Below, piece by piece: positions 13,906 to 19,444 of a stretch of DNA of 32,500 bases (the first letter of the stretch is position 1; each line of letters begins with the position of its first letter). A model generated the notes under the pieces. That model worked only from the letters and a program-made list of their open reading frames with translations, searched no databases and was not told where the DNA came from. A program made the translations under genes and the position numbers. Source of the stretch: Candidatus Hydrogenedentota bacterium (GTDB lineage Bacteria; Hydrogenedentota; Hydrogenedentia; Hydrogenedentales; JAEUWI01); assembly GCA_016791475.1 (NCBI GenBank), contig JAEUWI010000069.1:1-32500 (forward strand). Direction: 5' to 3'.

Positions 13906-13997
13906 TGAATTGGGAATGGCGAATTGAAGAATCGCCCGTACTCTGTTGAATTTCCTAATTCACTATTCTCAATTCGCAATTCGCAATTCGCAATTCC
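13900..13997. repeat. 7-bp-periodic inverted and tandem repeat
   Basis: GAATAGTGAATT (13900-13911) and AATTCACTATTC (13957-13968) are a perfect 12-bp inverted repeat. Right after it, CAATTCG occurs three times plus a fourth copy CAATTCC, head to tail (13970-13997). The left arm continues with GGCGAATTGAAG, a reverse-complement relative of the same 7-bp unit. The AT-rich block stands out from its GC-rich surroundings. Its left arm contains the zapA stop codon. It can fold into a large hairpin and may also act as a transcription end. Confidence 0.8.
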
Positions 13998-14065
13998 CAC
14001 TTTGGGTGTTGCATCATGATCGCCTTGACCTTTTCTCATCTTCCAAGCGTAGGAGAGCAGCAGCG

Positions 14066-15337
14066 ATGGGTATCACACGAAGAGAAGTTTTGAAGGCGGG
14101 GGCCGCGGGGGCGGTGGCGTGGTCTGTGGCGCGGGGACCGGCGGCCTATGGGCAGGATCGTCCCTGGCGCCATGCCGTGATTGGCATCGGGGGCCAGGGC
14201 ACGAATCACTTGAATGGATTCGCGAAGACCGAGGGCGTGACCATCGTGGCCGCATGCGACGTTGATCCCGAGCGCCGGACGAAGGTGGAGGAATGGTGGA
14301 AGGACAAGTTCGACGCAAGAATGTACACGAACTTTCATGAGCTCCTGGCCGATCCGAACATCGACAGCGTCTCCATAGCCACACCGGATCACTGGCATAC
14401 GCCGGTGGCGCTCCACGCCCTCCTGGCGGGAAAGCATGTCTATGTGGAGAAGCCCTGCTCCCACAATATCCATGAGGCGCTGGTGCTCGACAAGCTCGCC
14501 CGGGACACGGGGCTCTGCGTGCAGCACGGCACCCAGCACCGCAGCGGCGAGGGACCTATTGAGATGGTCAAGCTGCTTCGCGAGGGGATCATCGGCAAGG
14601 TGCGCATGGCCAAGGCCATCAACCACCAGCTCCGCGGGCCCATCGGCCGCGAGCCCGACAGCGAAGCCCCGGCGGGTGTGGACTATGACATGTGGCTCGG
14701 GCCCGCGCCGAAGCGTCCCTTCTCCAGGAATCGCTGGCACTACAACTGGCATTGGCACTGGGACTACGGCACGGGCGATACGGGTAACGATGGCGTGCAC
14801 CAGATCGACGTGATGCGCTGGGGCATGGGCGTCGACCTGCCCAACCGCTGCACCTCCGTTGGCGCCCAGTTGTATTACGACGACGACCATGAGACGCCCG
14901 ACACGCAGACGGCGATCTTCGAGTACGACGACGTCCATCTCATGTTTGAGATGCGGCTCTGGACCAACTACAAGCTGGCGGGCCACGACAACGGCGTATT
15001 CTTCTACGGCGACAAGGGTACCCTGGAGATCGGCCGCGAGGGGTGCTTCATTCAGCTCATCGGCGAGGAGCGCAAGCGCATGGGCGACTCCCACAACTTC
15101 ACGGCCAACGTCGCAAACTTTGTGGCTTGCGCCAAAGCGGGCACGCCGGACAAGCTGAACGCGCCCATCAGTGAAGGCGTGAAGTCCACGATTCTGTGTC
15201 ACCTCGCCAATATTGGCACCCGGGTCGGCCGGCCCCTGACGTTGAGCCCGGATAAATCGAGCTTTATCGGCGATGACGCGGCGAACAACCTGATCGCCCG
15301 CACCTATCGCGAGGGCTATGAGCTCCCCAATGCATAA
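14066..15337 (+). CDS. Gfo/Idh/MocA family oxidoreductase with Tat signal
   Basis: From the ATG at 14066 (AGGAGA at 14051-14056, nine bases away) the product has 423 residues. It begins with a twin-arginine leader MGITRREVLKAGAAGAVAWS, so it is likely exported folded through the Tat system. A Rossmann NAD(P) motif follows (AVIGIGGQGTNHLNGF, about 34-49). Then come SIATPDHWHTPVALHALLAG and KHVYVEKPCSHN, both hallmark GFO_IDH_MocA elements; the Lys of EKP is the usual catalytic Lys. The C-terminal half is the alpha/beta dimerisation domain. Such Tat-exported members are abundant in Planctomycetes and relatives and are linked to sugar or sugar-acid oxidation. The substrate is unknown. An upstream in-frame start at 13946 lies in the repeat and is not credible. 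Confidence 0.9.
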   Translation: MGITRREVLKAGAAGAVAWSVARGPAAYGQDRPWRHAVIGIGGQGTNHLNGFAKTEGVTIVAACDVDPERRTKVEEWWKDKFDARMYTNFHELLADPNIDSVSIATPDHWHTPVALHALLAGKHVYVEKPCSHNIHEALVLDKLARDTGLCVQHGTQHRSGEGPIEMVKLLREGIIGKVRMAKAINHQLRGPIGREPDSEAPAGVDYDMWLGPAPKRPFSRNRWHYNWHWHWDYGTGDTGNDGVHQIDVMRWGMGVDLPNRCTSVGAQLYYDDDHETPDTQTAIFEYDDVHLMFEMRLWTNYKLAGHDNGVFFYGDKGTLEIGREGCFIQLIGEERKRMGDSHNFTANVANFVACAKAGTPDKLNAPISEGVKSTILCHLANIGTRVGRPLTLSPDKSSFIGDDAANNLIARTYREGYELPNA

Positions 15338-16214
15338 CGGAATGGAACAGCGCCCGGTGGGCCTGATCGGGCTCGGTTTGCTCGGAAAGGCTATCGCCGG
15401 GCGCCTTCTTTCGGCCGGTATGACGGTGACCGGTTGCGACGTTGCCCAGCGCGCCCGGGACGAGGCCCAGGCGCTGGGGGTCACTGTCGTGGAGGATCAC
15501 CACGCGGTGGCGGCGACGTGCGGCGTGATCGTGTTGAGCTTGCCCACCTCTGAAATCCGGCAGGCGTTGCTTTGGGGTGGTGGCGGTCTTGCGAAATCGT
15601 TGCCGGAAGGGGCACTGCTCCTCGACACCACCACGGGACGTCCCGAGGACACGGAAGTGGACTGGGCCCGGCTCAATGCCCTCCAGATCGACTTTGTTGA
15701 TGTATGCGTTCTCGCGTCGAGCGCCCTCGTGGCACGGGGCGAAGCCGTGTTGCTCGTGGGCGATGCCGAGTCTCGCGCCGGGGGCTATGCACCGCTCCTG
15801 CGGACCTTTGGACGGCAGATATTCTATCTGGGCAAAGCTGGCGATGGGAGCCGCATGAAGCTGATGGCCAATCAGGTGCTGGGACTGAACCGCCTCGTAC
15901 TGGCGGAGGCCCTGGGGTTGGCGGAGCGTTGCGGACTCGATCTGGAAATGACCCTCGACGTGCTCAAGTCCGGTCCGGCTTCATCCCAGGTCATGTTCAC
16001 CAAGGGAGCCCGCATGATCGCGGGGGATTTCACGCCCGAGGCTCGACTCGCGCAGCATGCGAAGGACGTGGGCCTGATCCTGGAAATGGGCGAGCGGTGC
16101 GGCGCGAAGTTGCCCCTCAGCGCGCTGCACCGAGAGGTGCTGAACCAGTTGATCGATTCAGGCCACGGTGGCGAAGACAATTCGGCAGTGGTGCGGGCCT
16201 TTAAGCAAGAATAG
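15318..16214 (+). CDS. 3-hydroxyisobutyrate dehydrogenase-like NAD(P)-dependent oxidoreductase
   Basis: This 298-residue enzyme belongs to the beta-hydroxyacid dehydrogenase family. It shows the N-terminal Rossmann motif GLIGLGLLGKAIAGRLL, SLPTSEIRQ, a substrate-site TTTGRPEDTE segment (usually DxSTxxP) and the catalytic lysine motif GDGSRMKLMANQ. The C-terminal half is the all-helical domain. Members reduce or oxidise short beta-hydroxyacids such as 3-hydroxyisobutyrate, tartronate semialdehyde or glyoxylate. The exact substrate is not evident. The ATG at 15318 overlaps the preceding gene by 20 bases; in-frame ATGs at 15330 and 15342 are alternative starts, and no ribosome site decides. It is likely cotranscribed with the oxidoreductase upstream. 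Confidence 0.88.
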   Translation: MSSPMHNGMEQRPVGLIGLGLLGKAIAGRLLSAGMTVTGCDVAQRARDEAQALGVTVVEDHHAVAATCGVIVLSLPTSEIRQALLWGGGGLAKSLPEGALLLDTTTGRPEDTEVDWARLNALQIDFVDVCVLASSALVARGEAVLLVGDAESRAGGYAPLLRTFGRQIFYLGKAGDGSRMKLMANQVLGLNRLVLAEALGLAERCGLDLEMTLDVLKSGPASSQVMFTKGARMIAGDFTPEARLAQHAKDVGLILEMGERCGAKLPLSALHREVLNQLIDSGHGGEDNSAVVRAFKQE

Positions 16215-16288
16215 GATTCCAGCGTGGCATCCCATCGAGCCGGGAGGCCGTGCGCCAGAACGCTTATCGCCAGAAAGGGCGGGGGCTA

Positions 16289-16912
16289 ATGCGAATCACC
16301 CGAAATAGGTTGTTGCTGTCGCTCGGGACGCTCTTCCTAATTGTGCTGATACCCTGGGTGGCCATTTTCAAGAATTCAGGGGCCTCATTTAACGCCACCG
16401 CCTTGGCCCAATCCGAGACACGCATGTGGAAAGCCTACTACGACCGCGATCTACTCCGATTGCGCGGGGAACTCCGCCGGATGCTTCGCGAACAGTTCGG
16501 GCTCTCCCGCTACCGCACTTGGCAGGTGTCGGCCCGCCTGGCGACGGCCTCCCTCAGTTTTGCCCGTAGCGGGGATGGGCAGGCGGCGGAAGTACTTCGC
16601 GATCTCACCGAGGCCTACCGAGGTATTCAGGCAGCGACCCGCCTCGACTTCGATCCCGCCGAGGCGGCCCGCGCCGAACTGGGGTGGTGGGCCGCCCGCC
16701 GTACGCCCGGTGAGAATCAACCCGAGCAGGTTGGCGAGCGGATTGAAGCGCTCTACGCCATTCTCTACGGACACACCAACGATCTGATCGCCCAGGCGGC
16801 CCTGCTGCGCGCTGAAGCCGCCCATGTCCGCGATACCCGGTCGGACTGGCCCGAGGTGGAGCGGCTCCTGGAGCAATCTTATCGGTCTCTGCTCGCGGGA
16901 ATGTTGCCCTGA
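16289..16912 (+). CDS. membrane-anchored protein of unknown function
   Basis: I do not recognise this 207-residue protein. It begins with a basic N-terminus and a hydrophobic helix (about residues 8-25, LLSLGTLFLIVLIPWVAIF), so it is either a type II anchor or a signal peptide. The rest is helical and rich in Ala, Arg and Glu, with helix pairs such as RDLLRLRGELRRMLREQ and GERIEALYAILYGH that would suit a TPR-like or other solenoid fold. An in-frame GTG at 16250 would give 220 residues, but the ATG at 16289 has AAAGGG nine bases upstream and places the membrane helix at the start. It converges with the SDR gene after nine bases. Confidence 0.7.
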   Translation: MRITRNRLLLSLGTLFLIVLIPWVAIFKNSGASFNATALAQSETRMWKAYYDRDLLRLRGELRRMLREQFGLSRYRTWQVSARLATASLSFARSGDGQAAEVLRDLTEAYRGIQAATRLDFDPAEAARAELGWWAARRTPGENQPEQVGERIEALYAILYGHTNDLIAQAALLRAEAAHVRDTRSDWPEVERLLEQSYRSLLAGMLP

Positions 16913-16921
16913 TCCCATCTC

Positions 16922-17737
16922 TCAGCGTGTCGGCGGTTTGCCGGAGAAGTGGTCCATGGAATGATAGATCCCGAGCCACCGCCCGCATACCGCATCAAAG
17001 ATCGGAGCGGGCAACGCCGCGTAAAGCATGGGGACGAGGTTCACGATCCATGGTATGCGCAGCATGGACGTGTTTCGCTCAATTCCCTGAAGAATCTTTT
17101 CCGCAGCATAGCCCGGTTCAAGCAGGGGCGCGCCAAAAGGCGCGGCGGCGCCGGCAAACATGCCCGTATTGACATAGCTGGGGCACACCGTCGTCACGTG
17201 CATGCCCCGGTGTTCCCGCAGTTCTACGCGCAGCGATTCGGAGAATCCCAGGCAGGCCCACTTGCTCGCGGCGTAGGTGGTGAGGCGTGGCACCGGCACA
17301 AAGCCCGAGGCCGATGCGATGTTGACGATGTGGCCGCTGTTGCGCGCGAGCATGGCGGGGAGAAAGGCCCGCGTGGTGTGGATGACGCCGAGGGTATTGA
17401 CCCTTATGGACTTCTCGATATCTTCGTGCGACTGCTCGGCAAGAGTCCGTCCCACGACGATACCCGCATTGTTGATGAGGATATCCACCGGGCGCTCATC
17501 GTTTAGACTCGTCGCCGCTTCGGCAATTTGCATGTAATCCCCCAGATCCACGGATGCCCCCGCCACCGTAGCACCGGGACCCTGTAATTCGCGCACGCGC
17601 GATTCGAGGGCATAGGCATTCACGTCCCAGAGGGTCACCCGGGCCGCGCCCCGCGCAAGGCACCCCCTGGCCATAAGGGCGCCCATGCCCTGGGCTCCGC
17701 CGGTGATGAGCACGTGTTTATCCCGAATCTGCGTCAT
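16922..17737 (-). CDS. short-chain dehydrogenase/reductase (SDR) family oxidoreductase
   Basis: The 271-residue enzyme is a classical SDR. It shows the NAD(P) motif TGGAQGMG (12-19), NNAG (89-92), the catalytic Ser in ASAS (about 142) and YAASK (Tyr155, Lys159). The segment after the active site (PSYVNTGMF) is the usual substrate-loop region. The C-terminus carries an extra hydrophobic stretch (IPWIVNLVPMLYAALPAPIF), typical of membrane-associated SDRs that act on lipids or sterol-like compounds. That link is family knowledge. It is a single gene on the minus strand, divergent from the isochorismatase-like gene across 150 bases. Confidence 0.92.
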   Translation of the reverse strand: MTQIRDKHVLITGGAQGMGALMARGCLARGAARVTLWDVNAYALESRVRELQGPGATVAGASVDLGDYMQIAEAATSLNDERPVDILINNAGIVVGRTLAEQSHEDIEKSIRVNTLGVIHTTRAFLPAMLARNSGHIVNIASASGFVPVPRLTTYAASKWACLGFSESLRVELREHRGMHVTTVCPSYVNTGMFAGAAAPFGAPLLEPGYAAEKILQGIERNTSMLRIPWIVNLVPMLYAALPAPIFDAVCGRWLGIYHSMDHFSGKPPTR

Positions 17738-17887
17738 AGAATTTGATGGTCCTGATGGAAAGGAAGTTCAGTGGTTTGGATGGGCCACCAGAGAGTAGCA
17801 TAGGGCGCAAGGTCTGCGCAGGTCCGCAGCCACACACGCATTGGATGGAACCGCTATCGCCATGGCGGCGCCGGAAAGGTAACAGAA

Positions 17888-19444
17888 ATGACCATTCGTT
17901 TCGTTGCGGGTTTGATTCTGATTTCGGTCGTGCTCTCAGGTTCTTCGGCTTTCTCCGAAGGCGCGCTTGCCCTTCACACCCGCGGCCAGATCGAGACCTC
18001 CCAGTGGGTGGCTCCGGAAAAGATTAACACCGATCTTGATGCTCCGGTGAGTGACCGGGCCTTTACGTATGTTCATAAGACGTTGCTGTGGGATCCCGCG
18101 AAGACGGCGCTCGTGATCGTGGACCTCTGGGATCAATCGCAGGCGCCCCAGGTGGGAAAGCGCATGGAGGAGCTCGCCCCGCACATCAACCAGGCCGCTC
18201 GGACCGCCCGGGAGAAGGGCCTGCTTGTTGTTCACGCGCCCGGCGGTGTTACCGATTATTACACCGGCACGCCCCAGCGTGCGCGATGCCTGGACGTCGA
18301 GCCTGTAGCGCTCGTGGCGATGGAGGAAGGTCCCGCCCTTCCCGTCGATGCTTCGGACAACGGATGGGAGGGACCTGTCCGCGCCGACAAGCCCCAGACG
18401 CGCCAGCACCCCGCTATTGAGATCGCCGAAGCCGACGCCGTCGGCGAGGGAGCTGAAGTCTATGGACTCTTGAAGAAGCGCGGGATTGAGAACGTTATCC
18501 TGATGGGTGTTCACGCCAACTTCGCCCTGCTCGACGGTCCGACGGGTATTCGCCAGATGAAGGCGCAGGGCTTGAATGTCGTGCTGGTGCGCGACTTGAC
18601 CGACAGCCGTTACAACCCCGAAAAAGCGCCCCGAGTGAGCCACATTCGCGGTACCGAACTCGTGGTCGACCACCTGGAACAGTTGGGATGCCCGACAATC
18701 GACAGTACCGACCTCACCGGCAAGCCCGCCTTTCGCTTTACGGAAGATACTCGCCCCCACCTGGCTATGATCGTCAGCGACGATCACTACCACGCCGACA
18801 AGACCTTGCCCGAGTTTGCCCGCGTGCTGCGAGAGGCGGAGGGGATCCATGTGTCCGTGCTCCACGGAGAAGGGGGCCACAGCATTCCGGGTATGGAGAA
18901 CCTGGCCACGGCGGATGCGGTGCTGGTCTTCGTACGGCGGCTCGGGTTACCGTCCGGTCAACTCAAACTGCTGCGTGATTTCGTCGCCTCGGGAAAGCCC
19001 GTTATCGGGCTCCGCACGGCGAGTCATGCCTTCAAGCTCAAGAACAAGCCCGACGGAAGCTATGAAGTCCCCGAAGGTATCGCGGAGTGGGGGGGCTTTG
19101 ACGCTGAAGTGCTCGGCGGCAGCTATACGGGCCATGAGGCCAACGAAATTGGCGCGGATATCAGCAACCTGTCGACAGACCATCCGATTCTAAAGGGCGT
19201 GGAGCCCGCCGCCTGGCACAGCCTCGGTTCCCTGTACAATACCGGAGCCATTGCCGCCGATGCGCTGCGCCTGCAGGAGGGGAGCATTCCCGGGGTGACT
19301 GAGGCGGTCACCTGGATTCGCGGAGCGGCGCCGGGCCGCGGAAAGGTCTTTTACACGAGTCTGGGCCATCCGGCGGACTTTCGTGAGCCTGCCTTTCGGC
19401 AGTTGCTGGTGAATGCGGTGAAGTGGTCGGTGGGCACACTATAG
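17888..19444 (+). CDS. isochorismatase-like / ThuA-like fusion, secreted, catalytic Cys replaced
   Basis: The 518-residue protein has an N-terminal signal peptide (about 1-23). Residues about 70-240 match the cysteine hydrolase (isochorismatase-like) fold, with the Asp motif ALVIVDLWDQ (Asp79) and the segment GVHANFALLDGPTGIRQM (207-224). In homologous proteins as I know them this segment reads like GVHTNMCVLG, where Cys is the nucleophile; here the matching residue is Ala213 (codon GCC at 18524-18526). So the domain probably lacks normal hydrolase chemistry. Residues about 255-515 resemble a ThuA-like/class I glutamine-amidotransferase-like domain (HLAMIVSDDHYHADKT, VFYTSLGHPADF). ThuA domains are often found in planctomycete sugar-metabolism genes. 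GGAAAGG lies about nine bases before the ATG. Domain naming is by pattern; the Cys loss is read directly. Confidence 0.85.
   Translation: MTIRFVAGLILISVVLSGSSAFSEGALALHTRGQIETSQWVAPEKINTDLDAPVSDRAFTYVHKTLLWDPAKTALVIVDLWDQSQAPQVGKRMEELAPHINQAARTAREKGLLVVHAPGGVTDYYTGTPQRARCLDVEPVALVAMEEGPALPVDASDNGWEGPVRADKPQTRQHPAIEIAEADAVGEGAEVYGLLKKRGIENVILMGVHANFALLDGPTGIRQMKAQGLNVVLVRDLTDSRYNPEKAPRVSHIRGTELVVDHLEQLGCPTIDSTDLTGKPAFRFTEDTRPHLAMIVSDDHYHADKTLPEFARVLREAEGIHVSVLHGEGGHSIPGMENLATADAVLVFVRRLGLPSGQLKLLRDFVASGKPVIGLRTASHAFKLKNKPDGSYEVPEGIAEWGGFDAEVLGGSYTGHEANEIGADISNLSTDHPILKGVEPAAWHSLGSLYNTGAIAADALRLQEGSIPGVTEAVTWIRGAAPGRGKVFYTSLGHPADFREPAFRQLLVNAVKWSVGTL

Follow-up and report, generated by a model that had tools for sequence, protein, structure and literature searches.

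The isochorismatase-like half of a two-domain protein encoded in the window, by which we mean the whole analyzed stretch of 32,500 nucleotides from a Candidatus Hydrogenedentota bacterium (contig JAEUWI010000069.1 of assembly GCA_016791475.1), has an alanine in place of the family's nucleophile cysteine and is strongly accelerated on the window lineage, while the ThuA half of the same chain evolves at the rate of its sister protein. In this lineage, the first half has probably become a pseudo-hydrolase domain that serves a still functional ThuA half as fold or binding partner. An earlier note made from the letters of the sequence had suggested such a pseudo-hydrolase; the lost nucleophile, the retained Asp79, the lack of a substitute Cys and the maintained ThuA half agree with it, but the rest of the domain is eroded and no Cys-less clade accompanies the window.

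The gene layout and the domain assignments are summarized in Table 1. The frame, which the earlier note had called intact, is indeed open over all 518 residues at the positions listed there, and both Pfam matches lie above their curated cut-offs (PF00857 Isochorismatase, 31.9 bits against 27; PF06283 ThuA, 52.4 bits against 33.4). In an AlphaFold2 model of the fusion protein, built on a shallow alignment of 12 rows and with a mean pLDDT of 83.8, both domain folds are predicted to be intact, and this is the structure prediction that the earlier note had proposed as a check. Fold searches matched the first half of the model to RutB (Z 17.6, rmsd 3.1, 177 residues) and also to triuret and biuret hydrolases (TrtA, Z 16.8), and the second half to the ThuA-like protein 1t0b (Z 20.1, rmsd 2.6, 203 residues). 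Judging from its N-terminal sequence, the protein is probably exported and located outside the cytoplasm, the putative signal peptide having been called by eye only.

Table 1. Positions in the window of the fusion gene, its functional sites and its neighbors
Feature	Position	Strand	Basis or remark
Gfo/IDH/MocA gene	13946-15337	+	Pfam; 64% identical to G037 C545 relative
NAD_binding_2/NAD_binding_11 dehydrogenase	15318-16214	+	Pfam; 63% identical to G037 C545 relative
Small ORF without known function	16250-16912	+	59% identical to G037 C545 relative
Upstream block as a whole	13946..16912	+	G037 contig C545 has relatives of all three genes, likewise ordered
Short-chain dehydrogenase (SDR) gene, conserved neighbor	16922..17737	-	Pfam adh_short; 65% identical to the G035 neighbor, 59% to G037, 60% to G036
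Gap of 150 bp, SDR gene to fusion gene	17738..17887	.	Slot of a Gfo/IDH/MocA gene in G035, G036 and G037
Fusion CDS of 518 aa with a hydrophobic N-terminal stretch, followed by isochorismatase-like and ThuA domains	17888..19444	+	Intact single frame
Putative Sec signal peptide, residues 1-22	17888..17953	+	By eye: Arg4, hydrophobic run, AFS/EG; model helix 3-19
Isochorismatase-like domain, residues 62-289	18071..18754	+	Pfam and fold matches (RutB Z 17.6, TrtA Z 16.8)
Pfam Isochorismatase stretch, residues 73-244	18104-18619	+	Pfam
Asp79, family catalytic Asp, kept	18122..18124	+	Asp in 117/117 distinct readable homologues; aligned with TrtA Asp
Arg172-Gln173, kept; candidate region for catalytic Lys/Arg	18401..18406	+	Homologue columns
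Nucleophile segment, residues 207-222, GVHANFALLDGPTGIR; relatives mostly GVHTNMCVLGRPFGIR or close variants	18506..18553	+	7/14 conserved columns lost
Ala213 (GCC) in the nucleophile Cys column	18524..18526	+	Cys in 119/119 distinct readable homologues
ThuA domain, residues 300-513	18785..19426	+	Pfam; best solved fold 1t0b

Homologues were collected from 13 loci on genome contigs, from the window's phylum (68 genomes searched), from a set of 392 genomes surrounding a planctomycete relative, of which 62 gave a match at 1e-40, and from 387 genomes around a Verrucomicrobia-labelled relative (10 with a match, 6 of these in ThuA only). The latter two sets were drawn from larger groups and three candidates per genome were scored, so family copies may be missed. 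Weak isochorismatase matches in G050 (C421) and G039 (C28) and fragments in G072 (C267) were left out. Apart from the window, the set comprised 130 ORF rows with an isochorismatase domain, of which 121 are distinct; from these, the Cys count set aside L153 (an unrelated outlier of 27 bits) and L151 (which ends before the column) to leave 119. A score and coverage filter left 71 rows including the window, with L015/L051 as halves, and the partial L012 and L025 were excluded from the conserved-column and rate counts and from the trees.

Profile alignment to solved structures placed GVHANFA of the window protein on the GVTTEVC block of TrtA, with Ala213 in the column of the nucleophile Cys of TrtA (Cys162) and BiuH; the entry 6xj4, whose title names C162S, has Ser in this column. 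According to PMC7948467, Cys162 is the nucleophile of TrtA, replacement of this Cys by Ser inactivates the enzyme, and the triad of both TrtA and BiuH is Asp-Lys-Cys. All 119 distinct readable homologues carry Cys in the column, making the window protein the sole Cys-less member found, and the catalytic Asp is likewise invariant in the homologues readable at that site (117/117). Thus, the family ancestrally possessed the Cys, and a single derived loss occurred in the window. The earlier note had identified Ala213 as the Cys position and the Asp of VDLWD as kept, both of which these alignments bear out. It had also named two observations that would speak against its reading, a different Cys at the nucleophile position and a family that never had one there; no other Cys was found at that position, and the ancestral Cys contradicts the second. 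Its suggestion to look for a Cys-less clade led to one sequence and no clade, and a single sequence does not indicate long-term retention of the Cys-less state.

A substitute nucleophile was considered and rejected. The only cysteines of the window protein, Cys134 and Cys268, both lie in ordinary columns of the family alignment (Cys in 11/15 rows at column 134 and in 15/15 at column 268), so neither of them is new.

The earlier note had regarded the rest of the domain as well preserved, a view that the comparison with 59 full-length fusion homologues overturns. At 64 isochorismatase columns, conservation among these homologues reaches 90% or more; the window protein lost 13 of them, and none of the 59 lost more than 4. 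Losses were concentrated around the nucleophile: segment 207-222 has lost 7 of its 14 conserved columns, the remainder of the domain 6 of 50 (Fisher p 0.005). Moreover, the loop after the nucleophile changed from GRPF to DGPT, the loop Cys134-Leu151 has 8 residues fewer than its counterpart in the sister (L018), and the half as a whole is accelerated (see below). The ThuA half lost only 2 of 35 conserved columns, a loss equalled or exceeded in 18 of the 59 homologues; the difference between the halves in this measure (13/64 versus 2/35) fell short of significance (Fisher p 0.08). The genome is a draft of 529 contigs, 96.2% complete and with 3.66% contamination, and this draft state and contamination would favor an artefact of sequencing, assembly or alignment. 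Such an artefact is nevertheless exceedingly improbable, given that a change from Cys to Ala takes at least two base changes, that 13 conserved columns and a loop are altered together within an open frame, and that the ThuA tree and the gene order place the window beside G035.

The idea that one domain was swapped in from another family was rejected, since both domain trees put the window with the same relatives. Support for pairing it with L018 is weak in the isochorismatase tree (86/28), where the four-row clade reached 98/88, and strong in the ThuA tree (100/98). No second copy of the family matched in a search of the window's whole genome; three other isochorismatase loci are present in that genome, of which L154 and L155 keep the Cys and show no match to the window protein.

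For the rate comparisons, the sister was L018 from G035, a member of the same genus that is 61% identical to the window protein, five outgroups were used in turn, and the G036 row was the copy on contig C514. Relative rate tests counted 56-62 window-only versus 7-12 sister-only changes in the isochorismatase half (chi2 29-44 across the five outgroups), and 19-26 versus 14-21 in the ThuA half (chi2 0.1-1.9). Correspondingly, the end branch of the window measured 1.05 against 0.11 for L018 in the isochorismatase tree, being the sole branch flagged as long (median 0.22), and 0.25 against 0.19 in the ThuA tree. Pairwise dN between G035 and G036 was 0.147 in the isochorismatase half versus 0.251 in the ThuA half, and this relation was reversed between the window and G035 (0.312 versus 0.207). 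In a joint codon model with branch lengths shared by the halves, the window branch showed a domain-specific change of omega (LRT 51.7, p 7e-13), in contrast to the G035 sister branch (LRT 1.3, p 0.25); the absolute omegas are meaningless here, with synonymous sites saturated and the window branch at its bound. When the isochorismatase half, where synonymous sites are saturated, was taken by itself, the two-ratio codon test was not significant (p 0.37), and the lower window omega given by the same test in ThuA (p 0.006) came with a runaway branch length and was not trusted. Only the contrast between the halves was therefore used, because of the synonymous saturation, the branch at its bound and the nonsignificant two-ratio test.

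The fast half is still constrained. An omega of 1 on the window branch was rejected for the isochorismatase half (p 4e-7) and also for the ThuA half, and the isochorismatase changes outside 207-222 avoided conserved columns (4/48, versus 46/111 of the other columns; p 2e-5). The isochorismatase half is thus under weaker but real purifying selection, relaxed rather than abandoned. These results bear on the idea that the whole fusion gene is at the start of decay with both halves dispensable, which the missing upstream Gfo gene of the genus and the loss of half of the conserved nucleophile segment could suggest. We consider decay very unlikely, because the frame of 518 residues is intact, omega of 1 is rejected in both halves, and the ThuA half keeps 33/35 conserved columns and the rate of its sister, a half that can be regarded as maintained.

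The chief rival to a pseudo-hydrolase is a switch of the isochorismatase half to a chemistry that works without Cys. Cys-less isochorismatase-like proteins are already known and established in the superfamily, with the nucleophile Cys described as absent from PhzD (D38-K122-G155) and YecD (D26-K112-G145), where Gly stands in its place and the Asp is kept (PMC5353710). The window protein keeps Asp79, Arg172 and Gln173, and fast change around the nucleophile in a retained fold could be adaptive. Nonetheless, such a switch appears unlikely: the window has Ala and not Gly, the sequence alignment placed no catalytic Lys in the fusion family, the codon analyses gave no sign of omega above 1 (although saturation weakens this result), and the changes are spread over the domain, reaching 46 of the 111 less conserved columns, as expected from relaxed constraint. 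As for the Lys, the profile alignments to solved structures break before its region. At position 173 (codon 18404-18406 in the window), 109 of 120 distinct homologues have Gln and 11 have Glu, and position 172 varies; in YcaC, the counterpart of the catalytic Lys position is reported to be Arg84 (PMC4519933). With Gln or Glu near the expected place of the Lys, the fusion family may possess an unusual triad.

For a pseudo-hydrolase domain beside a working ThuA half, the following course of events can be proposed. The ancestor was a cysteine hydrolase of the isochorismatase-like type that carried a fused ThuA domain, and in the window lineage its nucleophile Cys gave way to Ala, the following loop to DGPT, and the other loop to its shorter form. 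Because the nucleophile Cys is replaced, thioester-type hydrolysis by the isochorismatase half should no longer be possible according to the chemistry of the family, and catalysis by this half would be lost. Since purifying selection is retained and the predicted fold is intact, we infer that the fold is most likely kept to hold the ThuA half, its oligomer or a ligand. The ThuA half, evolving at a normal rate, would then be the working part.

The gene neighborhood offers a possible context for this loss. The order on G037 contig C545 (Gfo, dehydrogenase, small ORF, SDR, further Gfo, fusion) is that of the window plus one extra small ORF, and the further Gfo gene sits between the SDR and fusion genes on C545, in G035 and on G036 contig C182. 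Of this further gene, the last 28 codons are present at the edge of G036 contig C514, upstream of the second G036 fusion copy, and in G023, which gave no SDR match, the gene lies directly upstream of the fusion. Hence, it directly precedes the fusion in G035, G036 and G037, the three remaining genomes of the genus, and in G023, and is absent in the window lineage. The copies of G036, G037 and G023 are 81-82% identical to the G035 query. In the 150-bp gap of the window, a search for a Gfo remnant returned only short weak matches, none of them convincing, and the best match in the window's genome (56%, on another contig) is nearer to a G034 protein (67%) than to the four Gfo copies (55-57%). With one Gfo/IDH/MocA protein as query, 75 matching stretches were obtained in the window's genome, some genes being split in two, in keeping with a large family set.

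Among the distant Cys-bearing relatives, L006, L007, L008, L010, L023, L024 and L026 gave no Gfo match in the flanks examined, L011, L014, L022 and L027 gave only matches of 31-39% in other places or orders, and L013 has a 70-residue match of 40% just upstream. The coupling of the Cys loss to the missing Gfo gene is weak, because Cys-bearing distant relatives also do without the gene and a 56% homologue exists elsewhere in the window's genome. It is conceivable that the hydrolase half once acted on the product or the substrate of the Gfo oxidoreductase and became dispensable together with it. ThuA has a role in disaccharide metabolism, and in some relatives the presence of a Gfo/IDH/MocA gene next to the fusion is at most a reminder of thuA-thuB. 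A recent switch from enzyme to pseudoenzyme in one domain, coupled to the loss of the neighboring oxidoreductase and leaving the half as a scaffold or effector site for ThuA, is a tentative proposal that we hold to be possible though rather doubtful. If true, it would tie Gfo/IDH/MocA, the isochorismatase-like hydrolase and ThuA into one unrecognized extracytoplasmic pathway. The protein is a clean natural experiment, in that one half lost its nucleophile and sped up, the remainder of the chain acts as an internal control, and a candidate partner gene is gone from the adjoining slot; for a fusion family that has been little studied, it suggests a pathway that can be tested. Among the literature searched, no paper was found on the Isochorismatase-ThuA fusion, nor on ThuA-like proteins or ThuA with Planctomycetes.

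Several further features of the family were recorded. On G035 contig C3 (L152:4503-6733), a two-gene cassette of an AAA_21 ATPase and a DUF4276 protein, with HEC-01A and HEC-01B as the best PADLOC models, lies directly downstream of the intact fusion gene and is flanked by two 113-bp direct repeats that are 94% alike and represent the fusion gene's 3' end. The arrangement suggests a candidate defence cassette, inserted at this 3' end without disrupting the gene. Ten ORFs (L029, L030, L031, L033, L035, L036, L037, L038, L039 and L147) have the reversed domain order, with ThuA first, and the nine of them put in the trees form one clade in both domain trees, for which a second fusion event or a rearrangement of the domains could be responsible. 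Two different fusion copies occur on separate contigs in G037 (L150 and L021) and in G036 (L179 and L005); three of the four are cut by contig ends, the Cys is kept in the three that are readable at the column, and the two-copy state may represent a strain mixture. In the planctomycete set, the longer fusion ORFs L054, L055, L057, L060, L070 and L080 (965-1102 residues as fetched) extend several hundred residues further, so a third domain is possible in them.

In comparison with known systems, the window protein belongs with an Isochorismatase-ThuA fusion family found in MAGs labelled Hydrogenedentota, Planctomycetota and Verrucomicrobia, with which it shares the domain order and 39-64% identity (14 rows). 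Neighbors of the fusion gene are conserved within the genus, and the window differs from the other members in its missing Cys, its fast first half and the lack of the upstream Gfo gene. The fold of the first half is shared with the triuret hydrolase TrtA, the biuret hydrolase BiuH and the ureidoacrylate amidohydrolase RutB (Z about 16-17.6), as are the catalytic Asp and the position of the nucleophile block. In contrast to TrtA and BiuH, the window protein has Ala for Cys and is fused to ThuA, and after the nucleophile the fusion family is three residues longer than these two enzymes. PhzD and YecD (1nf9 and 1j2r; fold Z 14.8) resemble the window protein in lacking the nucleophile Cys and keeping the Asp; however, their third position is Gly where the window has Ala213, which departs from the Asp-Lys-Gly pattern, and all other fusion family members found carry Cys. 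The second half shares its fold with the ThuA-like proteins 1t0b, 4jqs and 4e5v (Z 18.6-20.1), from which the window protein differs in having its ThuA domain fused behind an isochorismatase-like half.
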